A stretch of 23,230 bases of DNA from a virus: positions 1 to 23,230 of the IMG/VR virus record IMGVR_UViG_3300011258_000954, one strand, 5' to 3'. Each line of letters starts with the position of its first letter. Position 1 is the stretch's first letter. Made by a program: the position numbers and the translations under genes. A model generated the notes under the pieces. The model ran no database searches and was not told where the DNA came from. It saw only the letters and a program-made list of their open reading frames with translations. This document shows positions 3,822 to 19,061 of this stretch, piece by piece.

Positions 3822-3955
3822 TGTATAAAGTTGATTTCTATAACTTTGGATATTCAAAACATTTTGATACTCTTGAACAGGCAATTGAAAATGCTAAGTC
3901 ATCAGGATTTCAATGTACTGTTTGGTTTGCCAATGCACTCATTAGAAATTTTTAA
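3821..3955 (+). CDS. 44-aa unknown protein
   Basis: A 44-residue frame, MYKVDFYNFGYSKHFDTLEQ through NALIRNF, starts on the last base of the preceding stop (TAATG) behind a GAGGAG site at 3807-3812 and ends on the first base of the next ATG. It looks like a short beta-alpha-beta fold (VDFYNFGYSK, then a helix DTLEQAIENAKSSG, then QCTVWF). The shape and tight coupling suggest a real gene, and similar tiny proteins are common in marine myovirus early regions. Function unknown. Confidence 0.68.
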   Translation: MYKVDFYNFGYSKHFDTLEQAIENAKSSGFQCTVWFANALIRNF

Positions 3956-4098
3956 TGGTCTCCGTTGTTAACAGATTGAAGCGTCGTAATCCTTACGCAA
4001 AGGCACTATTAGATCGTCAGGGAATATATAAACAACGAGTGGAAAGGGATCGCACAAAGTACACTCGCAAAACTAAACACAAAAACAGAGAGGTGTGA
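3955..4098 (+). CDS. 47-aa very basic unknown protein
   Basis: A 47-residue frame, beginning MVSVVNRLKRRNPYAKALL and ending KHKNREV, overlaps the preceding stop by one base (TAATG). About 40 percent of residues are Arg or Lys. The RNPYAKAL block and the later KQRV...KYTRK pattern resemble a small basic family I recall in T4-like marine phages. Its charge suggests nucleic-acid binding, but no defined motif is seen. It sits in a run of coupled small genes after the early promoter. Moderate confidence that it is translated, low confidence on role. Confidence 0.62.
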   Translation: MVSVVNRLKRRNPYAKALLDRQGIYKQRVERDRTKYTRKTKHKNREV

Positions 4099-4100
4099 AA

Positions 4101-4304
4101 ATGAGTATGAAAGAAACATTAATTAACAATCTAAAAGCAAAATATATTAATCAAATCCAAATATCCAAAACAAACATCAATTTGTTTCTAGCGAGTCCAC
4201 AAGGTGTTGCTGAACATATTGATTTTTCTGAAACAGTTGAGAAGGAATTGGAAAAGATCGCTCACGCTAATGATATGCTTGAGTCAATCAATCTTTTGGA
4301 CTGA
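4101..4304 (+). CDS. 67-aa conserved-type small phage protein
   Basis: This small, mostly helical protein starts at 4101 behind a GAGAGGTG site at 4086-4093; a GTG at 4095 is an alternative start. Its central pattern, NINLFLASPQGVAEHIDF, followed by ETVEKELEKIAHANDMLESI, resembles a small family common in T4-like marine phages (an NPxGVGEH block followed by a charged helix). Function is unknown. It lies between the basic 47-aa gene and the metalloprotease gene, in the same direction, probably in the operon from the promoter at 3211-3239. Confidence 0.72.
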   Translation: MSMKETLINNLKAKYINQIQISKTNINLFLASPQGVAEHIDFSETVEKELEKIAHANDMLESINLLD

Positions 4305-4307
4305 TCG

Positions 4308-4937
4308 GTGCATGTAATCGTTAAAGGTGGGAAAAAGTATCAGCGAATATGGGTGAATGATATAACTCAGTTTTGCTTGAAGAAACTAGTCTCCACTCGG
4401 ATGTATAATTTGCTCGAAGTTACTGTAGAAATGAGAAAAGACTTGTTTCACAAAGAGGGATTATATGGCGATGCGCAACCAGATGACTGGGGAGAAGCAA
4501 GACCAAAGTTTTTTACGGTTCGCATTGATAACTCTCTTAGATTGAGACCGTTGTTACAAAGTCTATGTCATGAACTGGTTCATGTTTCGCAGTATGCTAA
4601 GAATGAGATGCGCGAGGTAACTATAAAAGGTGAGATGTGCACTCGGTTCAAGGGAAAGTATTATCCGCATGAACAAACTCCCTACTGGGAACAACCATGG
4701 GAAGTCGAAGCAAATGGTTTGGAACGTGGAATGTTTGAGATGTGGGCAACTGATCTAGGAATCTTTGATGACGAAAGAAATAACAACTGGGCATATTTGG
4801 ACGAATATCCTACTGGATACTGGGAAAAGATATGGTCGCAAGATAAAACCGAACCAAGACAGAAAAAGCTTGACTTCGGAGAGGATTTAAGCGATAATAT
4901 ATGTATGGTTAACGAAACGACTTCTGGGGCGCATTGA
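4308..4937 (+). CDS. Zinc metalloprotease-like protein (HELVH, gluzincin/SprT-like)
   Basis: This 209-aa protein carries a zincin active-site helix, LCHELVHVSQY, with H88, E89 and H92, and a downstream WEVEANG whose E134 is a fitting third zinc ligand. The layout is like SprT or related small metalloproteases. The N-terminal half is a mixed alpha/beta region and the tail (after about 180) is acidic and polar. The proposed start is GTG at 4308, because no ATG gives a full-length protein; the ribosome binding site is weak. ArdC proteins end in a zinc metalloprotease domain, and an ArdC N-terminal-like protein is encoded nearby, so the two may act together; that is inference. Confidence 0.75.
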   Translation: MHVIVKGGKKYQRIWVNDITQFCLKKLVSTRMYNLLEVTVEMRKDLFHKEGLYGDAQPDDWGEARPKFFTVRIDNSLRLRPLLQSLCHELVHVSQYAKNEMREVTIKGEMCTRFKGKYYPHEQTPYWEQPWEVEANGLERGMFEMWATDLGIFDDERNNNWAYLDEYPTGYWEKIWSQDKTEPRQKKLDFGEDLSDNICMVNETTSGAH

Positions 4938-5019
4938 CAACTCTCTCTCTCTCAAAATCAATTTGTCATGTGATAAAACGGTAATGCAAAATTATCGACC
5001 CCCACCTTATCTCCTCCTC

Positions 5020-5045
5020 GCCCCACTTCGTTGGGGCATTTTTTT
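5020..5045 (+). terminator. Rho-independent terminator after the early gene block
   Basis: GCCCCA (5020-5025) and TGGGGC (5032-5037) form a six-pair GC-rich stem with the six-base loop CTTCGT, followed by A and seven T residues (5039-5045). It lies 82 nt after the metalloprotease stop and immediately before a TATAAATA late promoter, so it separates the early and late blocks. Confidence 0.88.
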
Positions 5046-5046
5046 G

Positions 5047-5054
5047 TATAAATA
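5047..5054 (+). promoter_or_regulatory. T4-type late promoter (TATAAATA)
   Basis: An exact TATAAATA match, the T4 late -10 consensus read by the gp55 sigma factor, sits 31 nt before the ATG at 5086 and directly after the terminator. The same octamer with the same 31-nt distance occurs before the structural gene at 11532, which supports a real late promoter. Confidence 0.82.
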
Positions 5055-5085
5055 GTTGATAAACTAATAATTGTAGAGATCTGAT

Positions 5086-6513
5086 ATGACGATTAAAACA
5101 TTTAAGGAAATGCTAACTGAAGGTGCTGCTAGTAATAAAGATCTCTTCAAAAGGGATAACAGAAAAACATTCATAGATAAAGCGCAAAAAGGCGAATTGG
5201 TAGATACCAAAGGAAATAAAATTCCTAAAGTCTCATCATCTTCTGAAATCATTAAATATATGAAAGATAATGATTCGCCATCACCAGAAATGAACAAAGC
5301 GTTTCTTGATTCATATGGTAAATCTTTCACTGCTCTTAAAATAGATAAACAATTAAATGGATTTTCGCCAAGTAGTGGACGTGGCGCAGGATCAGAACCA
5401 AGTGGAGCAGAGTGGGAAGAGGTTATATGTATTGCCTATAATATGGCAAAAGGTATGACTAAAGACAAGGCGATGTCATCTGCAGGGATTTCTAATCTTA
5501 AAGAAAAATTAGAAGGATTCATACCTGTAGGATCAGAGATAGTTAAAAACGCTTTTGGTAATCCAAAAGGAACTATGGAACACTATGGGGCAGGAACAGC
5601 GAATCTTAATAAACAATGGGACAAGTGGTTTGTGCAAACCACTGGTAAACCTGCTCAAGCGTCAACTAAAACACCAAAGACTGACATGTATATTGGAGCA
5701 CAACATATAAGTTTGAAAAAGCATGGTGGTTCTCAACTTATGTCAGGTGGTAAGGCAGAAACATTAGCAACTCTTGCGTTCGCTTATGAAAACCTTTCTC
5801 CGGAAACGAAAACGAAGGCACTCGACCGAGCGTGGAGTAAACTAACAAAACAAATAGAAAAAGATTTCACTAAAATTAATTTGCCTTCAGGCGAAACAAT
5901 CGGTGGTTTGAAGAAAAAGGCAGAAACTGGCACAAAAGATAAACTTGTAAAATTAGTCAAAGAATCGCTAACAAAACAAAGCGAAATGACAAATGCTATT
6001 CGAGACATTCTTTCTACTCCCGAAGCAAAGATAGAAGTATGCAGAGAAGCAATGACTGGCAGAAGTAAATTTTCAGAAAAATTGCCTATTGCTACGCATA
6101 TGATGATATTTGGTGCAGACGGTCGTGGTGCATATAAACCTATCAATGACAAACTTGTAAACTTTTATGCGGCAAGAACTAAGTTTAACATTTCATTTAA
6201 ATCTTCAGGCGCAGGTGGACAATCATGGACTGCATTAAAAGGAATATTTAATGAACAAGTTGAAACTCCATTACTAGACGAAATTATAAACGAAGCATAT
6301 AAAGTTTGTTCGGAAGAATTACTTCAAGAGGGCATACTTTCGAATGTTGGAAATGCTTTGAAAAAAGGAGTCAATGCTGTTAAAATGCTATTAGTAAAAA
6401 TGTTAAAATTTATATGGAATAAAGTAAAGACATTGCTTGCTAGTAGTTTAGAATATGTGCAATCAATATTAGGAATTAAAATGACAGCAAATAACCCAAC
6501 TGTGGTTTGGTAA
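5086..6513 (+). CDS. Late nuclease-like protein with a capsid-targeting-like N-terminus
   Basis: This 475-aa protein begins MTIKTFKEMLTEG, very close to the T4 internal-protein capsid targeting sequence MKTYQEFIAEA, with a (L/I)xE-G site after E12. Residues about 108-225 suggest a PD-(D/E)xK nuclease-like core: an acidic helix (GAEWEEVICIAYN), then KTPKTD with D200 and HISLKKHGGSQLMSGG with S209 and K211. Two further sites, INE-A (401-404) and LQE-G (413-416), precede a hydrophobic/amphipathic tail (LLVKMLKFIWNKVKTLL). It is the first gene after the terminator and late promoter, so it is probably a virion protein. The nuclease call is tentative; the (E/D)xK position is Ser here. Confidence 0.62.
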   Translation: MTIKTFKEMLTEGAASNKDLFKRDNRKTFIDKAQKGELVDTKGNKIPKVSSSSEIIKYMKDNDSPSPEMNKAFLDSYGKSFTALKIDKQLNGFSPSSGRGAGSEPSGAEWEEVICIAYNMAKGMTKDKAMSSAGISNLKEKLEGFIPVGSEIVKNAFGNPKGTMEHYGAGTANLNKQWDKWFVQTTGKPAQASTKTPKTDMYIGAQHISLKKHGGSQLMSGGKAETLATLAFAYENLSPETKTKALDRAWSKLTKQIEKDFTKINLPSGETIGGLKKKAETGTKDKLVKLVKESLTKQSEMTNAIRDILSTPEAKIEVCREAMTGRSKFSEKLPIATHMMIFGADGRGAYKPINDKLVNFYAARTKFNISFKSSGAGGQSWTALKGIFNEQVETPLLDEIINEAYKVCSEELLQEGILSNVGNALKKGVNAVKMLLVKMLKFIWNKVKTLLASSLEYVQSILGIKMTANNPTVVW

Positions 6514-6514
6514 A

Positions 6515-7744
6515 ATGAAAAAGTTTTCGACATACATAACTGAAGAAAAAAACACTCACATGGAACACCTAGAGGACGCTGTTCTCAACGCAGGTGTGAA
6601 AGGAGCAAGAGATGCAATTAATCTCCTCAGAAATTTACGTGATATGCTCGCTGGCAGCAGTGATTCTGCTGTGGACGTCACCGTAAAGTGGGACGGTGCA
6701 CCTGCTATCTTTGCAGGTATTGACCCAACAGATGGAAAGTTCTTTGTTGCTAAGAAGGGTATCTTCAATAAGAATCCTAAAATATACAAGACCGAAGCAG
6801 AGGTTAAGGCAGATACCTCTGGCGATCTAGCAAAGAAACTATCACTGACATTAAAGTATTTGCCAGAACTTGGTATCACTCAAGGTGTGTATCAAGGAGA
6901 TCTACTATACTCTAGATCTGATTTAAAAAAACAAACGGTTGATGGTGAGAAGATGGTCACATTCCATCCTAACACTATCATGTATGCAGTCCCACTCGCA
7001 TCAGAGTTGGGTAGAACTATACGCCAATCACAAATTGGTATTGTTTGGCATACAACCTATACAGGCGACTCTTTTGAGAACATGAGTGCATCATTTGGTA
7101 AGAACATTGCTTCTAAATTTAAAAATAGCAAGAATGTTTGGTCTGTAGATGCTATGTTCCAAGATGTATCAGGCAATGCTACATTTACAAAGAAAGAGAC
7201 TACACGAATCACCAAGTTGCTTTCCGACGCTGGGAAAATTTTTAGAAAACTTGATGCTAAAACACTTAATGGAATATCTGACAATCCCGAACTGCTTCAG
7301 AAAGTAAAGACTCACTACAACACAAAGGTGCGTAAAGGTGAACGAATTACTAATGTTTCTGCTCATGTCAGGGATCTCGTTAATTACATTACTGAATTCT
7401 ATGGAAAAGAAGCAGAAAAAAGGAAGACGCCACAAGGCAAAGCAAAACAAACAGACAAGCGTGATGAGATACTAAGTTTCTTTTCTAATTCAAATAAAAA
7501 GAATTTAGAAAACATCTTCACGATGATGAACTATATAATAGTTGCAAAAGAAATAATTGTTGACAAATTAGACCAAGCAAGTAATATAGGTACATTCCTA
7601 CGAACAGCAAAAGGATTTGAAGTAACTGCTCCTGAAGGATATGTAGGTATTGATCGAAAAGGAAGTGCTTTGAAGTTGGTTAATCGTATGGAGTTCTCAA
7701 GAGCGAACTTCTCAAGTGATGTGATTAAAGGATGGGAAAAATGA
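6515..7744 (+). CDS. Late protein with KWDG nucleotidyltransferase-like motif (DUF6267-type)
   Basis: This 409-aa protein starts one base after the previous stop. Its first ten residues, MKKFSTYITE, resemble the T4 capsid targeting peptide, ending in an ITE motif. The block NTHMEHLEDAVLNAG, then VTVKWDGAPAIFAGIDP (K58, D60, G61), FFVAKKGIFNK and GVYQGDLLYS (about 124-133), matches a conserved marine-myovirus family I remember as DUF6267. KxDG, then a K-G segment, then QGD, has the order of motifs I, III and IV of covalent nucleotidyltransferases (ligases, capping enzymes), so a ligase-like fold is plausible. The C-terminal part (about 240-340) is helical and basic. Activity is not established. 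Confidence 0.75.
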   Translation: MKKFSTYITEEKNTHMEHLEDAVLNAGVKGARDAINLLRNLRDMLAGSSDSAVDVTVKWDGAPAIFAGIDPTDGKFFVAKKGIFNKNPKIYKTEAEVKADTSGDLAKKLSLTLKYLPELGITQGVYQGDLLYSRSDLKKQTVDGEKMVTFHPNTIMYAVPLASELGRTIRQSQIGIVWHTTYTGDSFENMSASFGKNIASKFKNSKNVWSVDAMFQDVSGNATFTKKETTRITKLLSDAGKIFRKLDAKTLNGISDNPELLQKVKTHYNTKVRKGERITNVSAHVRDLVNYITEFYGKEAEKRKTPQGKAKQTDKRDEILSFFSNSNKKNLENIFTMMNYIIVAKEIIVDKLDQASNIGTFLRTAKGFEVTAPEGYVGIDRKGSALKLVNRMEFSRANFSSDVIKGWEK

Positions 7745-7854
7745 AAGAAGTGATGATGGAATATGTGGGATATGGATTTATGTGGTTGATATGTATTATG
7801 CTATGTTTGATACCATTGCATTTACTGCACTCAGTATTACATGCATTTTTCTAA
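7741..7854 (+). CDS. 37-aa single-span membrane protein
   Basis: The frame starts with an ATGA overlap on the previous stop and encodes MKEVMMEYVGYGF followed by a strongly hydrophobic helix (MWLICIMLCLIPLHLLHSVL). This is one membrane span with a short tail (HAFF) and no cleavage site. It is coupled to the KWDG gene and precedes a late promoter. Candidate roles are a holin-like or membrane-anchoring peptide, but nothing in the sequence decides. The start context (GGATGGGAAAA) is purine-rich. Confidence 0.55.
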   Translation: MKEVMMEYVGYGFMWLICIMLCLIPLHLLHSVLHAFF

Positions 7855-7857
7855 AAG

Positions 7858-7865
7858 TATAAATA
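7858..7865 (+). promoter_or_regulatory. T4-type late promoter (TATAAATA)
   Basis: An exact TATAAATA lies just after the 37-aa gene and 88 nt before the ATG at 7954. The long leader is unlike the other two late promoters in the window and contains a hairpin (7878-7914). It should drive the multidomain protein gene and the gene after it. Confidence 0.72.
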
Positions 7866-7877
7866 ACTGTTATTAGT

Positions 7878-7919
7878 CCTTATAAGCGACACTCTATTAT
7901 AACGCTTTATTAGGTTTTT
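7878..7919 (+). terminator. Imperfect hairpin with T-run in the 5' leader; possible terminator
   Basis: CCTTATAAGCG (7878-7888) pairs with CGCTTTATTAGG (7903-7914) through AAGCG/CGCTT and an outer CC/GG, with one bulge and one mismatch, followed by five T residues (7915-7919). It could end upstream transcripts or act as a leader element of the transcript from 7858. The stem is modest. Confidence 0.38.
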
Positions 7920-7953
7920 AGTCAAGCATTAAGTCTACGGAAAACATGCTAGT

Positions 7954-9957
7954 ATGAAAAAAATAGTATTTACATTTGGAAGAATGAACCCACCAACTGT
8001 GGGTCATCAAAAACTCGTTGATAAGGTCAAGTCCGTTGCCAAAGCACAAAAGGCAGACGCTAGAGTGTATTTGTCACACTCTCAAAACAATAAAAAAGAT
8101 CCCTTAGATTACGACACAAAGATTAATCTTGCTAAGAAGGCATTTGGTTCAACCGTAACTAAGTCTAGAGCAAGAACTATCATTGATGTTATGAAAGAAC
8201 TTACTGCGCAAAAGTACACCGACGTGGTGTTAGTTGTAGGTTCAGATCGTATAAAAGAATTCAAAACTTTGCTAGACAAGTATAACGGCAAAGATTATAA
8301 CTTCGAATCTATTAAATATCAATCTGCTGGTCAAAGAGATCCTGACGCTGAAGGTGTATCAGGTATGAGTGCCAGTAAGATGCGTGCTGCAGCAAAGGAA
8401 GGTGATCTTAAGGCATTCAAGTCTGGTCTACCTAAACCTCTACAGTCCTCTGCTCAAAAGATATATGATATGCTCCGTGATATAATGGAGACCGAAGAGT
8501 TAGACGAAGCAGTAATGACGTTACAACAGCGCATGAAACGAGCAAGAACGATGAAACGTATTGCTAAGAAACTTGCGATGAAACGAAAGATTAGAAAGAA
8601 ACGATTTGCCGATGCGAGTCGTTTACTACAGAGAGCGCGAAAGGCAGCAAAGAACATACTAAGAAAGAAACTTGCTGGTTCGCGTGGAGAGAATTACAAA
8701 CAACTCTCATTCTCAGGCAAGATGTCTGTAGATAAGTTGGTTGATAAACGTTCTGGTGTAATTGATAAACTAGCGAAAAGACTTTTGCCTAAAGTTCGTA
8801 AAGCAGAAATGGCAAGAGTTAAAGCAGCAAGAAGTGGACCAAAGAACGAGGAATACGATTGGTTGGAAAACGAAGATCTCGTGTTTGAGTTGTACGAATC
8901 CGATGCGGAGGAGTTCATGACTGAATTACTTGACGAAGCAAGACAAGACTCAGATATAAAAGATCGAGAGGGAACTCAACCTGCTAAGTATCACTCTGGT
9001 CTAAAAAAGTCAACTAAGGTTGCTCGTGATAGAGCATTCCAAAAAGGTGCTGATAAAGATCCAAGTGATCCTTCAGCATATCCAAAGTCACATCCTGGAG
9101 ATAGCACTGCTAAAACTAAAATGTCAAAACATACTAAAAAATATCATCAGATGTTCGGTGAGAAAGTTGAACAAGAAGACATAACTGAAAACGCCAAAGC
9201 AGCATTAATGAAAAAAGCAGACAAGTCTGGTATATCATACGGCATATTAAAGAAGGTATATGATAGAGGACTTGCAGCATGGCGTACAGGGCATCGTCCA
9301 GGTGCTAATCAACAACAATGGGGTTTTGCTCGTGTTAATTCTTTTATCACTAAAGGTAAAGGAACATGGGGCAAAGCAGATGCTGATCTTGCAGCAAAAG
9401 TTAGAGGATCGAAATCGAAGAGTGAAGATTGTTGGGATGGATATCATCAACAGGGTATGAAAAAGAAGGGTGATAAAGTTGTTCCTAATTGTGTGAAAGA
9501 GGCAGTATCACCTGCTCAACAGGCAGCAATCGCTATTTCTAAGAAGAAAAAGTTTAAGGAAATGATGAACAAATCAGGTGCTGGTGAGTTTGGTAGCACA
9601 GAACTTGCTAACAAATACAAAAAAGATACACCTGGCCAAGTTGCTGAAGACTGCGATTGTGATTATAGCGATGTTGTAATTACTGAGGCAGAATATCAAG
9701 GGAGATCGGTAAAACTAAATGATCCATTCAGATTACCAAGTGGAAATAAAAAGAAGTTTGGTGTGTATGTGAAGAATGCTAAAGGAAATATCATAAAGGT
9801 TACATTTGGTGATCCTAATATGGAAATCAAACGCGATGATCCAGCAAGAAGAAAGTCATTTAGAGCAAGACATGATTGCGCAAACAAAACAGATAAAACT
9901 ACTCCAGGATATTGGTCGTGTTACCAATGGCGTGCTAGTGCAAAAGTAGACAACTAA
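7954..9957 (+). CDS. Multidomain late protein: HIGH-type nucleotidyltransferase plus phage virion domains
   Basis: This 667-aa protein starts with a nucleotidyltransferase domain (1 to about 175): TFGRMNPPTVGHQK is the GRxNPPTxGH form of the HIGH motif, and SGMSASKMR (137-144) stands for ISSTxxR, as in NMN or cytidylyl transferases. Then come a very basic helical segment (190-290), a Lys-rich middle, a GISYGILKKVYDRG...AAWRTGHRPG block (426-465, DUF5824 as I recall), a CWDGYHQQGMKKKG...PNCVKE block (493-516) and a conserved C-terminal domain (580-660, DPNMEIKRDDPARRKSFRARH). Motifs LDEA (183-186), LDEA (326-329), ITEN (410-413) and ITEA (576-579) lie between these parts and match T4 gp21-type sites. 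The ribosome binding site is weak. Confidence 0.75.
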   Translation: MKKIVFTFGRMNPPTVGHQKLVDKVKSVAKAQKADARVYLSHSQNNKKDPLDYDTKINLAKKAFGSTVTKSRARTIIDVMKELTAQKYTDVVLVVGSDRIKEFKTLLDKYNGKDYNFESIKYQSAGQRDPDAEGVSGMSASKMRAAAKEGDLKAFKSGLPKPLQSSAQKIYDMLRDIMETEELDEAVMTLQQRMKRARTMKRIAKKLAMKRKIRKKRFADASRLLQRARKAAKNILRKKLAGSRGENYKQLSFSGKMSVDKLVDKRSGVIDKLAKRLLPKVRKAEMARVKAARSGPKNEEYDWLENEDLVFELYESDAEEFMTELLDEARQDSDIKDREGTQPAKYHSGLKKSTKVARDRAFQKGADKDPSDPSAYPKSHPGDSTAKTKMSKHTKKYHQMFGEKVEQEDITENAKAALMKKADKSGISYGILKKVYDRGLAAWRTGHRPGANQQQWGFARVNSFITKGKGTWGKADADLAAKVRGSKSKSEDCWDGYHQQGMKKKGDKVVPNCVKEAVSPAQQAAIAISKKKKFKEMMNKSGAGEFGSTELANKYKKDTPGQVAEDCDCDYSDVVITEAEYQGRSVKLNDPFRLPSGNKKKFGVYVKNAKGNIIKVTFGDPNMEIKRDDPARRKSFRARHDCANKTDKTTPGYWSCYQWRASAKVDN

Positions 9958-9968
9958 AGGAAACTGAA

Positions 9969-11483
9969 ATGAATTTACTAAACACAATTAAAAATCTATA
10001 CGAAAAGGTTGATCCTCAAGACACTGGCGGTGCTGAAGAAACATCTATGATTATGGGTCAAGTGAAACAGATGCGACACTATCTCGATGGTATTGAAGAG
10101 AGAGTTGCAAAAGACGGTGATGTCGAGGAATGGGTACAGAATAAACTTACAAAGGCAACTGACTATCTAAAGTCTGTCTATGGTTATAAATTAGGCAAAG
10201 ATGATAGTGAGGGGATAAATGAAGAAGTTGAACTTGACGAGGCATTAGATAAAAAAGACGAACCCAAAGTTAAAGAGATAATTAAAAAGTTAAAGGGTGC
10301 AAGTAAAGCTCATGCTGGTCAAGCAGATGATTTAGAAAAGGCAGTCCTTGACGAGGCACAAAAACTTTTCATGTTCACAACGAAAGCAGAAGCACAAAAG
10401 AAAGCAAAAGAAATTGGCGGTAAAGTATTAGAATTAAAACGAGCAATGGATGGCAACATGTTTGCTGTTCTTCATAAAGATCTAACAAAAGAGGAATTGA
10501 AAATGTCAATCGGAGAAGGTAAAACATATGGTCTGACTCAATCATTGCTCGATGCAGTCAAAGGTGTATTAAATGCTGACAACACCAATGATGTATCTGA
10601 CGATGGCGATGAGATGGATAAGGTACAACCAAAAGCATTAAAGAAGAAGTTTGCAAATCGTAAAGACAAAGACATCGACAATGATGGAGATACAGATGAT
10701 TCAGATGAGTATCTACATAAGAGACGTAAAGCAGTTTCTAAAGCAATCGACAAAGAAGAAGAGGTCGATGATAAAGAAGTAGAAAAGAAAGCGAAGGCAG
10801 AAAAAGATGTTGACGTTGACGACAAGGACGATAATAAGAAAGCGATGGCAAAAAATGCTGACGATGATGATGAAAAGTCCGACGAAGAAAAGCAAAAAGA
10901 AAAAGAACTAATTGCTAAAAAGTCAGATCGTAAAGAAAAAATCAATACTAAACCAACTATTGGCGAAAGTGCTGCTCGTAAGCGTTTATCTGGTATGATG
11001 AAAGACAAAGCGAACGTAAAAAACGTTCGTATTCCTACTCCTGCTGAGCGTAGAGCACAAATGGCAAAACAGAATGCAGGTAAAAAGAAGAATCCAAACT
11101 CTATATTTGCTTCTACAAATGAGGAAGTTGAACTTGACGAAGCAAAGTTTACAGATAAGCAAATCAAGATGGCGTATGGCGTATTGAATGACCCACGTTA
11201 TAAGGGTGGCAACTTATCTGGTGCTACGAAAGCGATCGAAAAAATTGCTCGCGGATTATCAAAAAATCCTAGTGTTATGAAAGCAATGAAGGCGACTTCT
11301 GAACAGGTTATTGTGAAAGAATTAAACATTAAAGAAGAAGAAATGACGCCTGAGCAGGAAAAGAAAAAAGAAGAAATCGTTATGGCAATGAAGAAAAAGT
11401 TGCCAGAATTCGAAGCGAAGTATGGTGATCGAGCAAAAGAAGTCATGTACGCCACTGCCACTAAGATGGCAATGAAAACTTAA
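9969..11483 (+). CDS. Charged late core-like protein with repeated LDEA motifs and an EF-hand-like loop
   Basis: This 504-aa late protein has an N-terminal helical domain (MGQVKQMRHYLDGIEERV...EEWVQNKLTKATDYLKSVYGYK), a charged low-complexity middle (about 260-325, Asp/Glu/Lys) and conserved C-terminal blocks (FTDKQIKMAYGVLNDPRYKGG; LPEFEAKYGDRAKEVMYATATKMAMK). DIDNDGDTDDSDE (235-247) is a full EF-hand or dockerin-type calcium loop. Prohead-protease-like motifs are LDEA (89-92), LDEA (127-130), IGEG (181-184), IGES (331-334) and LDEA (389-392). The first and last sit in an identical 9-residue block, NEEVELDEA. It has a good AAAGGAAA site. Probably a prohead core or internal head protein; function is inferred. 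Confidence 0.68.
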   Translation: MNLLNTIKNLYEKVDPQDTGGAEETSMIMGQVKQMRHYLDGIEERVAKDGDVEEWVQNKLTKATDYLKSVYGYKLGKDDSEGINEEVELDEALDKKDEPKVKEIIKKLKGASKAHAGQADDLEKAVLDEAQKLFMFTTKAEAQKKAKEIGGKVLELKRAMDGNMFAVLHKDLTKEELKMSIGEGKTYGLTQSLLDAVKGVLNADNTNDVSDDGDEMDKVQPKALKKKFANRKDKDIDNDGDTDDSDEYLHKRRKAVSKAIDKEEEVDDKEVEKKAKAEKDVDVDDKDDNKKAMAKNADDDDEKSDEEKQKEKELIAKKSDRKEKINTKPTIGESAARKRLSGMMKDKANVKNVRIPTPAERRAQMAKQNAGKKKNPNSIFASTNEEVELDEAKFTDKQIKMAYGVLNDPRYKGGNLSGATKAIEKIARGLSKNPSVMKAMKATSEQVIVKELNIKEEEMTPEQEKKKEEIVMAMKKKLPEFEAKYGDRAKEVMYATATKMAMKT

Positions 11484-11492
11484 TCTTAAAAT

Positions 11493-11500
11493 TATAAATA
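11493..11500 (+). promoter_or_regulatory. T4-type late promoter (TATAAATA)
   Basis: An exact TATAAATA sits in the short gap after the core-like gene and 31 nt before the ATG at 11532, with an AGGAG ribosome binding site in the leader. The distance equals that of the late promoter at 5047. It should drive the structural block that follows. Confidence 0.82.
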
Positions 11501-11531
11501 AGTAACAAATCTTTAATAGGAGATAAACAAA

Positions 11532-12263
11532 ATGTCACTTTGGGGTAATAAAGACAGCAAAACAATAGCAGGTAGTATTACTGTTACTGCTGCAAACTCT
11601 ACTGTTGTCGGATCAGGGACAACACTCACTAACTTCGCAGTTGGCGACTCACTAAATGCTGGAGACAGCGATTTTGTGATCACTGCTATCGCTAACGCAA
11701 CCGTCGCAACTGTAAGAGCAGGTGCTACTGGTGGAACATTGGCAAGTGCTCAATCTAACAATGCATACGTTGTATCAGAGAAACCAAAATACATGGCATA
11801 TGGTCAAGTTAATGGTGATCTAGGAAATGTATACGGTGTAGACGTTGGCGAGATGGAAGGTTCACCAATCTCATCAACTATCACTATTACAACAGCAGGT
11901 GCTAATTACACTTCAGCACCTACTATTGCGATCTCAGCACCTGAACATCCTAATGGCGTTCAAGCAACTGCCACATGTACGATTAGTTCTAACGCAATTA
12001 ATGCTGTTACTGTAACTAACGACGGACAAGGTTATCAGTCAATCCCAACAGTATCACTATCAGGTGGTAACACTACTATCGCAGGTGTTGGAGTTTTGAC
12101 TGCTGCATTGGTATCAACTGAACAACTAGCAGTTCCTCACGCTGGTTGGGTAGTTCGAACTGCAGGTTCTGGCGGTCGTGCTGGACGTGTTCAGTACGAA
12201 ACACTCGTAGCGAGTTCCTCTGTTACTGGTGATGGTGCTGACGACGCTAAGTTGCCTGAATAA
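11532..12263 (+). CDS. Virion structural protein, conserved in T4-like marine phages
   Basis: This 243-aa protein begins MSLWGNKDSKTIAGSITVTAANSTVVGSGTTLTNF, a start I associate with a common structural protein of T4-like cyanophages. It is rich in Ser, Thr, Ala, Val and Gly and in beta-strand repeats (TITITTAGANYTSAPTIAIS, then AVTVTNDGQGYQSIPTVSLSGG). The end, HAGWVVRT, GSGGRAGRVQYETLVASSS and TGDGADD, matches the same family. No catalytic motif is visible. The two AGANYTSAP and GQGYQSIP units look like an internal repeat of a beta-sandwich. It sits right after a late promoter and has an AGGAG site. Probably a neck, sheath-associated or fibre-like virion part; the exact role is unknown. Confidence 0.78.
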   Translation: MSLWGNKDSKTIAGSITVTAANSTVVGSGTTLTNFAVGDSLNAGDSDFVITAIANATVATVRAGATGGTLASAQSNNAYVVSEKPKYMAYGQVNGDLGNVYGVDVGEMEGSPISSTITITTAGANYTSAPTIAISAPEHPNGVQATATCTISSNAINAVTVTNDGQGYQSIPTVSLSGGNTTIAGVGVLTAALVSTEQLAVPHAGWVVRTAGSGGRAGRVQYETLVASSSVTGDGADDAKLPE

Positions 12264-12278
12264 ATTGGAGAATAACTA

Positions 12279-12659
12279 ATGGCAGATAAAAAGGTCACAG
12301 AATTAACGGCAGCGACGAGTACGACTGCCGACGACCTTTTGATGATTGTCGATAATCCAAACGGTACACCTGCAAGTAAAAAGATCACGCTGAACCACTT
12401 TTTCGGAAGTGTTTCAGCGAATACCGTTATTAGTGGCACTCTTAGAACGAGCGCGAACAACACTATTGCTGGTAATAAGATGACTGTTACTGCTAACACT
12501 ACCTTCAATGGAAACTTGAGAATGTCATCAGATACTCCATCATCCAACAACGCAGGATCTGAAGGATATGGAATTGGGTCAATATGGTTCGATGCGAACT
12601 ACATTTATGTTGCAACTGCATCAGGAGTAATTAAAAGGGTTGCATTGAGCGTATTCTAA
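12279..12659 (+). CDS. Small virion structural protein
   Basis: This 126-aa protein starts MADKKVTELTAATSTTADDLLMIVDNPNGTPASKKITL, a sequence start common in phage virion proteins, and ends with IWFDANYIYVATASGVIKRVALSVF, a C-terminal block typical of tail-fibre or neck-fibre modules. The middle is a Thr/Asn/Ser-rich beta region (SGTLRTSANNTIAGNKMTVTANTTFNG). It has a GGAG site at 12267-12270 and follows the previous structural gene by 15 nt. Probably a trimeric beta-structured virion component; no function beyond this can be read. Confidence 0.75.
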   Translation: MADKKVTELTAATSTTADDLLMIVDNPNGTPASKKITLNHFFGSVSANTVISGTLRTSANNTIAGNKMTVTANTTFNGNLRMSSDTPSSNNAGSEGYGIGSIWFDANYIYVATASGVIKRVALSVF

Positions 12660-12670
12660 AAGTATAACAT

Positions 12671-13057
12671 ATGTTTGAAAATTTGACGGAAGACAACTTC
12701 CAACTTTTCGCCATGAAATATTATATAAATCCACATTGTACGGATTTATTAGAGTTTCGTGAAGATCTTCGAAGAATATGCTACATTAAAAGATTATTTA
12801 AGAAGTATGAGAAAACTGGTGTGTTAAAAGAAAGACTGATATTGAATCACTTGATGGTTCTTTACAACATGTTTGAATCTAGAGAAATGACACGTATGTT
12901 GTTCTTTAGACTAACTGAATATCACCATTACTTGAAACCATTTTTGATGTTTCTTAGTTATTGGCCAGTCAACATTGGCAAAATAGATGGAAAAGATGTA
13001 GTTGATACTAACATACCATTAGACATCTACATTGTAAACACTCTTAGGAAAATTTAA
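12671..13057 (+). CDS. Conserved unknown protein of the late block
   Basis: This 128-aa helical protein begins MFENLTEDNFQLFAMKYYINPHC and contains KERLILNHLMVLYNMFESREMTRMLFFRL, a family conserved in T4-like marine phages as I remember it, without known function. It is rich in aromatic and basic residues and has no signal peptide or clear membrane span. A TATAACAT element (12663-12670) just before the ATG is close to, but not, the late promoter consensus. The stop overlaps the next ATG by one base (TAATG), so it is coupled to the next gene. A role in head or neck assembly is possible from location only. Confidence 0.72.
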   Translation: MFENLTEDNFQLFAMKYYINPHCTDLLEFREDLRRICYIKRLFKKYEKTGVLKERLILNHLMVLYNMFESREMTRMLFFRLTEYHHYLKPFLMFLSYWPVNIGKIDGKDVVDTNIPLDIYIVNTLRKI

Positions 13058-13617
13058 TGGCAAGCAAAATTGTAGATCTAGTCCTAGTATATCAGTTTCT
13101 GAAAAGACTGACTACACCTTTTGATAAGACCGAAGCATTCAAACTCGGACTTATTGATAAGGACGGCAAGTCGCTGAAGAAGGCAGAAACTTCTGAAGAA
13201 AAATCAGCGATGGGATACTTCGATCGTTTGACATTTAATCTCAAGCGTTTGCTTGGAAAACTTCCTGGTGGTAAATCAAGATTGGCATCATATGCTGCTG
13301 CTTTGTTACTCCTCAGAGAACATGCTAACCCCAAAGGGCATTACACTGATGAGGAACTAGCACAAGATCTTATGGAGAACCTAGATATGTTAGATAAAAC
13401 TGTAACCAAAAAACTCAATGAGTTTATTGCTGAAGATGCCCCTGCTAATGCTACAGGCGCAGCAGTTGCTGGTACTGGTGATGATCCTTCTGATTGGAAG
13501 AAGATGGATGCCAGAAAGAAAGAAACTAAAATGTTTCTTCGACGTTATATGGAAGGAAAAATGAAACGTGAGGCGTTGAAGAAACGCAAAGATTTCATGA
13601 AGAATCTAGGACTGTAA
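13057..13617 (+). CDS. Conserved late protein with an FIAE site
   Basis: This 186-aa protein matches a conserved marine T4-like family: MASKIVDLVLVYQFLKRLTTPFDKTEAFKLGLID, a LLGKLPGGKSRLASYAAALLLL block (65-86) and a basic C-terminus (MFLRRYMEGKMKREALKKRKDF). Residues 121-126 are NEFIAE, matching the end of the T4 capsid targeting peptide and a gp21-like IxE site, followed by an Ala/Gly linker (NATGAAVAGTG). If cleaved, the basic C-terminal part would be released. It overlaps the previous gene by one base and is followed by the next gene after one base. Role unknown; a head-core or packaged protein fits. Confidence 0.72.
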   Translation: MASKIVDLVLVYQFLKRLTTPFDKTEAFKLGLIDKDGKSLKKAETSEEKSAMGYFDRLTFNLKRLLGKLPGGKSRLASYAAALLLLREHANPKGHYTDEELAQDLMENLDMLDKTVTKKLNEFIAEDAPANATGAAVAGTGDDPSDWKKMDARKKETKMFLRRYMEGKMKREALKKRKDFMKNLGL

Positions 13618-16084: not shown

Positions 16085-17857
16085 ATGGCAAGGCAACATT
16101 TAGGCATCAATATCGATGCCCGAAGGGATCGTTTACTTTCAGATCAAGCATTTAAATTATTAAAAGATTATTATTGCATAAAAGATGAGAAAACTCCACA
16201 AGAAGCATTCGCTCGTGCAGCAGTAGCATATAGTTATGGTGACATGGAATTAGCGCAGCGCATTTATGATGGTGCGTCTAAGGGTTGGTTCATGTTCAGT
16301 TCACCTATCCTGTCGAATGCTCCGATGCCTGATCAAAAGGCAAAGGCACTACCGATCTCATGTTTCCTTTCTTATGTTCCTGATACATTAGAAGGTTTAA
16401 TTGATCACACATCAGAGTTGCGATGGTTATCCGTAAAGGGTGGTGGTGTCGGTGGTCATTGGTCAGACGTGCGTAGTATTAGCGACATCGCTCCAGGTCC
16501 ACTTCCGTTTCTACATACAGTAGATGCTGATATGACTGCATATCGTCAAGGAACTACACGCAAGGGTTCATACGCTGCATATATGAACGCTGATCATCCA
16601 GACATTGTTGAGTTTATACAAATGCGTATTCCTACTGGTGATGTGAATCGTAAGAATCTAAATTTGCATCACGCAGTAAATCTATCAGACGAATTTATGG
16701 AAGCAGTGCGTGATAACGGAATATGGCATCTGAAGGATCCTAATAGTAAAGAAGTTCGTGATACTATGCCTGCTCGTAAGTTATGGGAAATGCTACTTGA
16801 AACTCGATATCGTACAGGCGAACCATATCTAAACTTTATTGATACAGCGAACAAAGCATTACCTGAAGCGCAAAAGAAGTTAGGACTAAAGATTCATGGT
16901 TCTAATTTGTGTAATGAGATTCACCTAGCAACAAGCGATGATAGAACTGCGGTATGTTGTTTGTCCTCGCTAAACTTAGAGCGATATGATGAGTGGCGAA
17001 ACGAAGGTATCGTTGGTGATCTAATACGATTCTTAGATAATGTGTTGCAGTATTTCATTGATAATGCACCTGATAGTATTAGTCGCGCAAAATATTCGGC
17101 AGAGCGAGAGCGTTCTCTCGGACTTGGAGCAATGGGATATCACTCATACTTACAGAAACATATGATTGCGTTTGAGTCTCAGGAAGCATTAGATACTAAC
17201 ATAGAAATGTTCAAGTCTATTCAAGAGATGGCAATACAAGAGTCAGAGATACTTGCTAAAGAACGTGGCGAAGCACCTGATATGAAAGGTTGGGGAGTTC
17301 GTAATGCGCACTTGCTAGCGATCGCTCCTAATGCCAACTCTAGTTTGATTGGTGGTACTTCGCCTTCTATTGAACCGTGGAAAGCAAATGCATTTACCTC
17401 TCGTACACGCGCAGGATCACATCTAACAAAGAATAAGTATCTAGTGGAATTACTCGACAAACTCGGTAAGAATGATGAAAAAACTTGGTCATCTATTATT
17501 ACAAATGGTGGTTCAGTTCAACACTTTGATTGGATGCCTGATGATATGAAGATGGTATTTAAAACTGCTATCGAACTTGATCAAAACTGGGTAGTTAAAC
17601 AGGGTGGCGATCGTCAAAAGTATTTGTGTCAGGGACAGTCACTTAATATATTCTTCCCTGCTGGAGCAACTAAATCATATTTGCATCAAGTACACTTTAA
17701 TGCTTGGAAGTATGGAGGAAAGGGACTATACTATTTGAGAACCGAAACATCTAACAGAGCAGAAAACGTAGCACAAAAAATAGAAAGAGATAAATTGATA
17801 GAATTCACAGACAACACACAGGAGGACGATGATGAATGCGTTGCATGTCAAGCTTGA
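16085..17857 (+). CDS. nrdA: Class I ribonucleotide reductase alpha subunit, no ATP cone
   Basis: This 590-aa protein is a class I NrdA: C93 (ISCFL) and C291 (AVCCLSSLN) form the active-site thiol pair, N274-C276-E278 (SNLCNE) are catalytic, Y549-Y550 (GLYYLRTE) pass the radical, and the C-terminal CVAC (585-588) reloads the active site. It begins near the catalytic barrel without the N-terminal ATP-cone of about 90 residues, so overall-activity control by dATP is probably absent. It is shorter than typical NrdA (about 750 aa). The start at 16085 has an AAGGGG site. It overlaps the next gene by 29 nt. Confidence 0.95.
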   Translation: MARQHLGINIDARRDRLLSDQAFKLLKDYYCIKDEKTPQEAFARAAVAYSYGDMELAQRIYDGASKGWFMFSSPILSNAPMPDQKAKALPISCFLSYVPDTLEGLIDHTSELRWLSVKGGGVGGHWSDVRSISDIAPGPLPFLHTVDADMTAYRQGTTRKGSYAAYMNADHPDIVEFIQMRIPTGDVNRKNLNLHHAVNLSDEFMEAVRDNGIWHLKDPNSKEVRDTMPARKLWEMLLETRYRTGEPYLNFIDTANKALPEAQKKLGLKIHGSNLCNEIHLATSDDRTAVCCLSSLNLERYDEWRNEGIVGDLIRFLDNVLQYFIDNAPDSISRAKYSAERERSLGLGAMGYHSYLQKHMIAFESQEALDTNIEMFKSIQEMAIQESEILAKERGEAPDMKGWGVRNAHLLAIAPNANSSLIGGTSPSIEPWKANAFTSRTRAGSHLTKNKYLVELLDKLGKNDEKTWSSIITNGGSVQHFDWMPDDMKMVFKTAIELDQNWVVKQGGDRQKYLCQGQSLNIFFPAGATKSYLHQVHFNAWKYGGKGLYYLRTETSNRAENVAQKIERDKLIEFTDNTQEDDDECVACQA

Positions 17858-19061
17858 TCAACCAGAAATAGAAATTTACACTAAGGACAACTGCCCTTAC
17901 TGCATACAAGCCAAAGATTGGTTTACCAGTCATGGGTTCAGTTACACCGAGAATAAATTATATGACGAAGAACAAAGATTAGCATTCTTTCAAAAGTTTC
18001 CTACAGCAAAAACTGTACCACAAATATTGATAGACGGAAAAAACGTTGGGGGATACGACGAGTTTATGAAGATGAGTGATACATTAGTTAAGAAACAGTC
18101 AGGTGGATTGATTGACTTTTCTAAAACGTACAAACCTTTTTACTATCCATGGGCAGTAGAAATTACTACAAGGCACGAAAAGGCGCACTGGATTGAGGAC
18201 GAAGCAGATCTATCAGAAGATGTTTCTGATTGGAAAGGTGGTAAGATTTCTCCAGTAGAAAAGGATTACATTACAAACATTTTGCGTTTGTTTACTCAGT
18301 CAGATGTGGCAGTTGGACAAAATTACTACGATCAATTTATCCCTAGATTTAAAAACAATGAAGTTCGTAATATGCTTGGATCATTTGCCGCACGTGAGGG
18401 CATTCATCAACGAGCATACGCATTACTGAACGAAACACTTGGACTACCTGATAGTGAGTATCATGCATTCTTAGAGTATAAAGAAATGGTAGAAAAGGTT
18501 GAGTTTATGATGGAATCAGATCCTTCTACTCAACGTGGACTTGGACTATCACTTGCGAAGTCAGTATTCAACGAAGGTGTTGCGCTGTTTGCTTCCTTCG
18601 TTATGTTACTCAACTTTCAGCGGTTCGGTAAGATGAAGGGAATGGGTAAAGTCGTTGAGTGGAGTATTCGTGACGAGTCTATGCACGTAGAGGGTAATTC
18701 TAAGTTGTTCAGAGCATTTTGTGCTGAGCACGGACGTATCATAGATGACGGATTCAAACAAGACATATATAAGATGGCAAGGCAAGCAGTAAAACTTGAA
18801 GACAAGTTTGTTGACCTTGCTTATAAGATGGGACAGATTGAAGGGTTGGAAACTCAAGAGGTGAAAGACTACATTCGTTACATCACAGACCGAAGGTTAT
18901 TACAACTTGGGTTGAAACCAAACTACGGTGTCAAAGATAATCCTTTGCCATGGTTAGAGTGGGTATTGAATGGTGCTGATCACACTAACTTCTTTGAGAA
19001 CCGTGTTACTGAATATGAGGTAGCAGGTTTGACAGGTGGTTGGGATGAAGCATATGCATAA
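17829..19061 (+). CDS. nrdB: Glutaredoxin fused to ribonucleotide reductase beta subunit
   Basis: This 410-aa protein has an N-terminal glutaredoxin domain (about 12-88: EIYTKDNCPYCIQAK with CPYC at 22-25, then the TVPQILIDGKNVGGYDEF block) joined to a full NrdB. Di-metal ligands are present: D159, E190, H193, E249, E283, H286, with radical tyrosine Y197 in EGIHQRAY. NrdB makes the tyrosyl radical that NrdA uses, and the glutaredoxin could reduce the NrdA C-terminal cysteines directly. A glutaredoxin-NrdB fusion has been described in Facklamia ignava. The start is 17829 or 17832; GGAGG at 17821-17825 favours the second ATG. Confidence 0.95.
   Translation: MMNALHVKLDQPEIEIYTKDNCPYCIQAKDWFTSHGFSYTENKLYDEEQRLAFFQKFPTAKTVPQILIDGKNVGGYDEFMKMSDTLVKKQSGGLIDFSKTYKPFYYPWAVEITTRHEKAHWIEDEADLSEDVSDWKGGKISPVEKDYITNILRLFTQSDVAVGQNYYDQFIPRFKNNEVRNMLGSFAAREGIHQRAYALLNETLGLPDSEYHAFLEYKEMVEKVEFMMESDPSTQRGLGLSLAKSVFNEGVALFASFVMLLNFQRFGKMKGMGKVVEWSIRDESMHVEGNSKLFRAFCAEHGRIIDDGFKQDIYKMARQAVKLEDKFVDLAYKMGQIEGLETQEVKDYIRYITDRRLLQLGLKPNYGVKDNPLPWLEWVLNGADHTNFFENRVTEYEVAGLTGGWDEAYA

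Follow-up and report, generated by a model that had tools for sequence, protein, structure and literature searches.

The window analyzed here is a virus fragment of 23,230 bases (IMG/VR record IMGVR_UViG_3300011258_000954), whose nearest isolated relatives are Pelagibacter phage HTVC008M, Methylophilales phage Melnitz, phage C48C1, Stenotrophomonas phage DLP6 and cyanophages, which are Kyanoviridae or Kyanoviridae-like T4-type phages. The genes for the gp41 helicase, a nuclease-like protein of 475 residues, a DUF6267 protein, a HIGH-type nucleotidyltransferase of 667 residues and, further on, the gp61 primase follow each other in the window as they do in HTVC008M and Melnitz, and the order from gp41 to gp61 is broadly retained in cyanophages too. 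The nuclease-like and the DUF6267 protein begin with a short tag that resembles the capsid targeting sequence (CTS) of the T4 internal proteins. With a probability of roughly 0.8, region 5047-12263 holds late-transcribed genes for virion proteins, set amid those for replication in a Kyanoviridae-like T4-type phage, and their products would be packaged by means of the tag, processed by a gp21-type prohead protease and ejected as cargo. The features are collected in Table 1.

Table 1. Features of the cassette and its borders (positions in the window).
Feature	Position	Strand	Remark
Intrinsic terminator-like hairpin and T run	5020..5044	+	GCCCCACTTCGTTGGGGC ATTTTTTT; divides replication genes from cassette
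T4-type late promoter TATAAATA	5047..5054	+	31 nucleotides before ATG of nuclease-like gene
Tagged nuclease-like protein, 475 residues	5086..6513	+	Invariant E111, TPKxD200, SLK211, Q217
CTS-like N-terminal tag MTIKTFKEMLTE of the 475-residue protein	5086..5121	+	Residues 1-27 of low model confidence
Invariant C-terminal LxE site L413-Q-E415	6322..6330	+	Between folded core and C-terminal helix
DUF6267 protein, ligase-like motifs VKWDGAP, YQGDLLY, EGYVGI, LKLVNR	6515..7744	+	PF19782, 383 bits (cut-off 27)
CTS-like N-terminal tag MKKFSTYITE of the DUF6267 protein	6515..6544	+	Outside predicted fold
T4-type late promoter TATAAATA	7858..7865	+	Upstream of HIGH-type gene
Multi-domain protein, 667 residues: HIGH-type nucleotidyltransferase, DUF5824 and further small domains	7954..9957	+	Untagged
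(L/I)xE site LDE-A, residues 183-185	8500..8508	+	Before basic domain
(L/I)xE site LDE-A, residues 326-328	8929..8937	+	Before DUF5824; poorly conserved
(L/I)xE site ITE-N, residues 410-412	9181..9189	+	Before conserved KKADKSG domain; the most conserved among the four sites
(L/I)xE site ITE-A, residues 576-578	9679..9687	+	Before EYQGR domain
Acidic/basic low-complexity protein, 504 residues	9969..11483	+	Rich in (L/I)xE-[AGS]
(L/I)xE-[AGS] sites of the 504-residue protein, residues 89-91, 127-129, 181-183, 331-333, 389-391	10233-10241, 10347-10355, 10509-10517, 10959-10967, 11133-11141	+
T4-type late promoter TATAAATA	11493..11500	+	Before next structural-type gene
Structural-type protein	11532..12263	+	Resembles virion-detected S-SCSM1_95, E 1.2e-6

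The 475-residue protein is rare outside close relatives and is called nuclease-like here after its PD-(D/E)xK-like residue pattern. Within the DUF6267 family 50 alignment columns are invariant, and K58 W59 D60 G61, Q127-D129, E374-G375 and K387 stand in ligase-type order; the assignment of these motifs to the covalent nucleotidyltransferase/ligase superfamily is our own. Compared with the PDB, the DUF6267 model gave weak matches to adenylation domains of NAD-dependent DNA ligases (E 0.3-2) and none under E 0.001. A sequence search of the PDB returned nothing useful for either protein, and the papers searched describe no role for DUF6267. The HIGH domain is of the CTP_transf_like type (PF01467, 23 bits against a cut-off of 21; PHROG cytidyltransferase, E 2.7e-94) and is nearest to NMNAT-type adenylyl and cytidylyl transferases. 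Since a single profile, PHROG 455, spans DUF6267 and the HIGH domain, the two may act together. The 504-residue protein matches the virion-detected S-SCSM1_92 over a short segment (E 1.8e-4).

An earlier note on this DNA, made from the sequence alone, had pointed to T4-like N-termini on the first two proteins, and the translations read MTIKTFKEMLTE-G and MKKFSTYITE-E, as it had stated. About 92 distinct N-termini of DUF6267 proteins were collected from viral contigs and phages, and almost every one has the form MxxFxx(F/Y)(L/I)xE directly upstream of the conserved domain start KNTHMEH. An alignment of 42 sequences shows F4 in 33, Y or F at position 7 in 33, L or I at position 8 in 41 and E10 in 41. 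These four positions are the ones that matter in T4 IPIII, where residues 4 and 7 steer targeting and residues 8 and 10 steer processing (PMC9026906). In the AlphaFold model of DUF6267, residues 1-14 have a predicted local distance difference test score below 50 and lie outside the fold. Homologues of the nuclease-like protein start with the same tag on bodies unrelated to DUF6267; as for a T4-type CTS, a putative N-terminal propeptide of 10-19 residues ending in (L/I)xE is common to proteins with unrelated mature parts. The placement of the tag varies among phages, being found on DUF6267, on the HIGH-type protein or on both. In pelagiphages (stretch 1212-2270; HTVC008M gp127 and gp129) its forms are shorter or otherwise changed (MYNDLLVED, MIPFILKEG, MLSFTGYSNLSEA), a hint at a different rule of scaffold recognition.

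A weight matrix trained on the DUF6267 tags alone was applied to the N-termini of 12 phage genomes or fragments at a threshold of 12 bits. It matched 29 N-termini of proteins other than DUF6267, whereas 0.92 matches were expected from the interiors of the same proteins. Gene starts here were taken from a simple in-house caller which agreed with the HTVC008M annotation in 164 of 186 cases. The matches comprise PNK/zeta-like kinases, a HAD phosphatase, HIGH-type proteins, a RimK-like ATP-grasp protein, products of genes adjacent to gp21 and the P-HM2 scaffold protein (gp22). As a positive control, the matrix recovered ipII and ipIII among five matches in 800 T4 starts, two further matches being probably false. 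DLP6, P-HM2 and HTVC008M together gave only two matches in about 600 N-termini, so that the pattern is not a general feature of phage N-termini. The highest-scoring start in all of T4 is that of gp61.1 (MKTFKEFIKEDMVAGDSG; NC_000866, 18966-19130), a protein of 54 residues with unknown function; its gene is situated between those for primase 61 and for helicase 41, which is where Kyanoviridae have the cassette, and gp61.1 may be an unrecognised packaged protein. The RimK-like ATP-grasp protein of Melnitz (ribosomal protein S6 modification type; 82-1131 of its stretch) begins with a very strong tag, MTQKFSQFITEEPKEQ, and is a candidate for a packaged translation modifier.

The motif TATAAATA is the core of the T4 late promoter. 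All three copies in the window lie on the plus strand and start 39 to 96 nucleotides upstream of the genes at 5086, 7954 and 11532; their number is unremarkable (1.76 expected by chance), and their placement before cassette genes is unusual. A late promoter motif was found within 130 nucleotides of 47 of 116 HIGH-type orthologues, and in relatives TATAAATA also precedes the genes for gp23, gp22, sheath and portal. A scan for sigma-70-type promoters did not rise above chance. Judged by the placement of the motif and its occurrence before structural genes in relatives, the cassette is probably expressed late despite its position among replication genes.

The earlier note had further listed nine (L/I)xE motifs in the 667- and 504-residue proteins, eight of them followed by A, G or S. 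Both the positions (Table 1) and the following residues proved correct; the list is a selection, as the two proteins contain seven and ten (L/I)xE motifs in total. Against composition-preserving shuffles the plain motif shows a slight excess (P 0.021 and 0.047, respectively), and the form followed by A, G or S occurs four times in the 667-residue protein against 0.75 expected (P 0.005) and five times in the 504-residue protein against 1.1 expected (P 0.003). The two tagged proteins show no enrichment of internal sites over shuffles. Because raw counts of (L/I)xE are weak evidence, the following residue, direction and position were used instead. The 504-residue family contains 3.19 (L/I)[STDNA]E[AGS] motifs per 1000 residues compared with 0.76 in phage proteomes, and 56 forward motifs stand against 10 reversed ones. 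In the 667-residue family, with domain-boundary anchors picked by eye from the alignment, the site before the KKADKSG domain was present in 16 of 22 non-redundant proteins under the strict motif (1 of 22 reversed), and the site before the EYQGR domain in 11 of 12 under a relaxed motif (3 reversed). The boundary signal is moderate at DUF5824 and non-directional at the basic domain, and overall the motif is barely directional away from the KKADKSG and EYQGR boundaries. All 11 members compared of the nuclease-like family have L413xE415; the ten besides the window protein share 25-37% identity with it. The site is located in a stretch of low model confidence that links the core to the C-terminal helix. 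By its sequence, this pattern is what a polyprotein cut by gp21 would look like. A Peptidase_S77 gene was detected in 19 of 25 related records, the remaining six being fragments, as well as in S-SZBM1, S-CREM2 and T4; every complete relative examined carries a gp21 protease gene.

Published virion proteomes of cyanophages report HIGH-type proteins in virions. Sullivan et al. (2010) found the citidylyltransferase T4-GC190 in S-SM1 virions (PMC3037559), and a HIGH-type cytidylyltransferase/NMNAT is likewise reported for S-SZBM1, S-CREM2 and S-SCSM1 (PMC9146016, PMC10665884, PMC9602691). All four proteins are tagged, with the N-termini MKKFSAFLNEA, MRFRQFIIEA, MKNFSSFLTEA and MKSFLQFLKEA in S-SM1, S-SZBM1, S-CREM2 and S-SCSM1, respectively. 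The annotated start of the S-PM2 HIGH-type protein shows no tag, and the protein went undetected in the S-PM2 virion. The tag is missing from DUF6267 in S-SM1, S-SZBM1 and S-CREM2, and the printed virion tables of the last two phages do not list the protein. Among the non-structural proteins of S-CREM2, all four tagged ones of at least 60 residues (SAM hydrolase, kinase, gp13 and cytidylyltransferase) were detected in the virion compared with 22 of 156 untagged ones (P 5.7e-4); without the length limit, four of seven tagged proteins were detected (P 0.007). Pooled over three phages, six of nine tagged proteins were detected against 1.4 expected (P 6e-4). At the helicase-to-primase locus of S-SCSM1 seven of ten products are annotated as virion proteins (genes 89, 90, 91, 92, 93, 95 and 97), gene 91 encoding the HIGH-type protein.

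Some further termini in these phages resemble the tag. The virion protein SSCSM1_93 (5627-5836 of its stretch) ends with TFKEFLEYIE, possibly a C-terminal version of it. The virion-detected Cas9-like gp12 of S-CREM2 (from the stretch 3837-13331, as are its tagged SAM hydrolase, gp13 and kinase) contains the tag-like LRFASFMAEA from residue 17, a CTG codon, so that the annotated start may be wrong. Small tagged proteins undetected in virions are encoded in the structural region, namely S-SZBM1 gp084 and gp085 (17312-18126 of its stretch) and SSCSM1_30 (44215-44535); the N-termini are MKTFKQYITEA, MKSFKSFLSES and MKTFKQFMSES.

Taken together, we propose that the CTS-like tags would dock the 475-residue and the DUF6267 protein onto the scaffold core of the prohead, as in T4 internal proteins, and that a gp21-type protease would cut after the Glu of (L/I)xE, freeing the mature enzymes inside the head. 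At the further inter-domain sites the C-terminal tail of the 475-residue protein would be trimmed and the 667- and 504-residue proteins would be split. The HIGH-type protein, which has no tag here, is likely to be carried in along with its DUF6267 partner; joint action of the two would account for its entry into the head. By analogy with IPI* and Alt of T4, the cargo would be ejected together with the DNA and would have host nucleic acids or nucleotides as its targets when infection begins; we infer an injected kit for nucleic-acid or nucleotide repair. The earlier note had spoken of a packaged, processed and ejected enzyme set. Packaging is strongly supported by the recurrence of the tag, its T4 determinants, the late promoters and the virions of relatives, and site conservation is the evidence that speaks for processing; cleavage in the window's virus, ejection and the enzymatic role are to be taken as predictions. 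Two parts of that set fit less well: the HIGH-type protein of the window is untagged, and comparison of the 475-residue protein with PDB structures did not confirm a nuclease fold.

Several observations weigh against this proposal. The gp21 gene, which the note had proposed to look for elsewhere in the genome and which the complete relatives do possess, was not found by the Peptidase_S77 search in the window's own record, a 23-kb fragment. The virion evidence is drawn from cyanophage relatives, and CsCl-purified virions can hold contaminants according to the S-CREM2 and S-SCSM1 authors (PMC10665884, PMC9602691). Some tagged small proteins (105-165 residues) went undetected in S-SZBM1 and S-SCSM1 virions, and untagged neighbors were also detected, so that the tag is not the sole packaging route. 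Directly behind the DUF6267 tag, E, Q or D frequently takes the place of A, G or S, and cleavage there may hence be inefficient. The DUF6267 tag is degenerate or absent in HTVC008M, P-HM2 and several cyanophages, and the HIGH-type protein of the window has no N-terminal tag, though orthologues elsewhere do.

Two other explanations dispute the delivery of the gene products; both rank below packaged cargo. The tagged proteins could be head-assembly proteins associated with the core or scaffold, which are mostly degraded and lost like gp22 and gp67 of T4. That the tag also occurs on products of gp21-adjacent genes and on the P-HM2 scaffold, and that the 504-residue family has repeated LDE-A sites as in a processed scaffold, would be in line with this. 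However, DUF6267 retains ligase-like catalytic motifs within its 50 invariant columns and the HIGH domain its catalytic motif, which argues for selection on enzyme activity, and HIGH-type homologues are present in finished virions; we regard the scaffold explanation as unlikely. Carry-over of ordinary cytoplasmic metabolic or repair enzymes from the lysate appears very improbable: abundant replication proteins are unlisted in the S-CREM2 and S-SZBM1 virion tables, the S-SCSM1 annotation counts seven cassette products among the virion proteins, and both the late promoters and the tags suggest a link with head assembly, even though the genes lie between gp41 and gp61 amid replication genes and the authors of two proteomes (S-CREM2 and S-SCSM1) raise carry-over.

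A different objection concerns the motif itself, which might be an amphipathic segment for folding or partner binding that resembles the T4 CTS by convergence. Many phage N-termini have a high content of K, F and L, the tag would be one among many short helical motifs, and the T4 scan did yield its two probable false matches. A segment of this kind is hard to reconcile with a tag that sits on unrelated bodies (kinase, phosphatase, ATP-grasp and HIGH domain), is disordered in the model and swaps between DUF6267 and the HIGH-type protein among phages. Its matrix moreover finds IPII and IPIII, the tag accompanies virion detection, and the two matches in DLP6, P-HM2 and HTVC008M are few; convergence is therefore distinctly improbable.

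The combination of CTS and gp21 is already known from T4. With IPI, IPII and IPIII the proteins described here share a ten-residue N-terminal tag ending in (L/I)xE, aromatic residues at positions 4 and 7, a gp21 in the phage (here in relatives) and unrelated mature parts (PMC9026906, PMC3012670), but the T4 internal proteins are small, whereas the cargo here consists of large multi-domain enzymes. Pfam and PHROGs scans of the window proteins gave no T4 internal-protein family; a direct comparison with IPI, IPII, IPIII and Alt was not run. T4 Alt is an enzyme that is carried in the head and that gp21 cuts at both of its ends (PMC9026906), and the cassette proteins would be similar to it in being packaged and processed; Alt is an ADP-ribosyltransferase and the cassette codes instead for ligase-like, HIGH-type nucleotidyltransferase and nuclease-like proteins. 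The virion cytidylyltransferase/NMNAT of S-SM1, S-SZBM1, S-CREM2 and S-SCSM1 belongs to the same HIGH-type family and mostly to the same locus, but in the window the tag is found on the neighbors of the HIGH-type protein. The accessible parts of the cyanophage papers attribute the virion enzyme to carriage or carry-over and name no tag, and the searchable literature, with subscription papers outside its scope, did not link the tag to virion enzymes of cyanophages or pelagiphages. In phiKZ and SPN3US many head proteins are likewise cut after xxE by a gp21-like protease; their motif, however, is (S/A)xE or AxE, the propeptides are mostly longer, and the accessible part of the report mentions no common ten-residue tag (PMC5694885).

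Reviewers of T4 have suggested that T4-like phages may be able to package varied proteins by means of the CTS (PMC9026906). The odds are about even for a broader view, in which T4-type marine phages load a wide enzyme cargo with one interchangeable ten-residue label, part of it as polyproteins cut at domain boundaries, and deliver it as a ready kit for repair and takeover. The cargo would range over ligase-like DUF6267, HIGH-type nucleotidyltransferase, PNK/zeta-like kinases, HAD phosphatase, RimK-like ATP-grasp protein, SAM hydrolase, Cas9-like protein and others. Scattered unexplained enzymes in cyanophage virions would then fall under a rule readable from sequence that predicts the proteins carried into the cell, and DUF6267 would stand out as a ligase-like enzyme that is packaged. 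The sea is very rich in T4-like cyanophages and pelagiphages. The tag offers a cheap screen for injected proteins. The findings also suggest that the prohead protease is able to process polyproteins.

PADLOC detected no defence family among the window proteins. Just upstream of the cassette, the gene at 4308-4937 encodes a protein with a HELVH zinc-protease-like motif that matches PHROG 10499 (function unknown).

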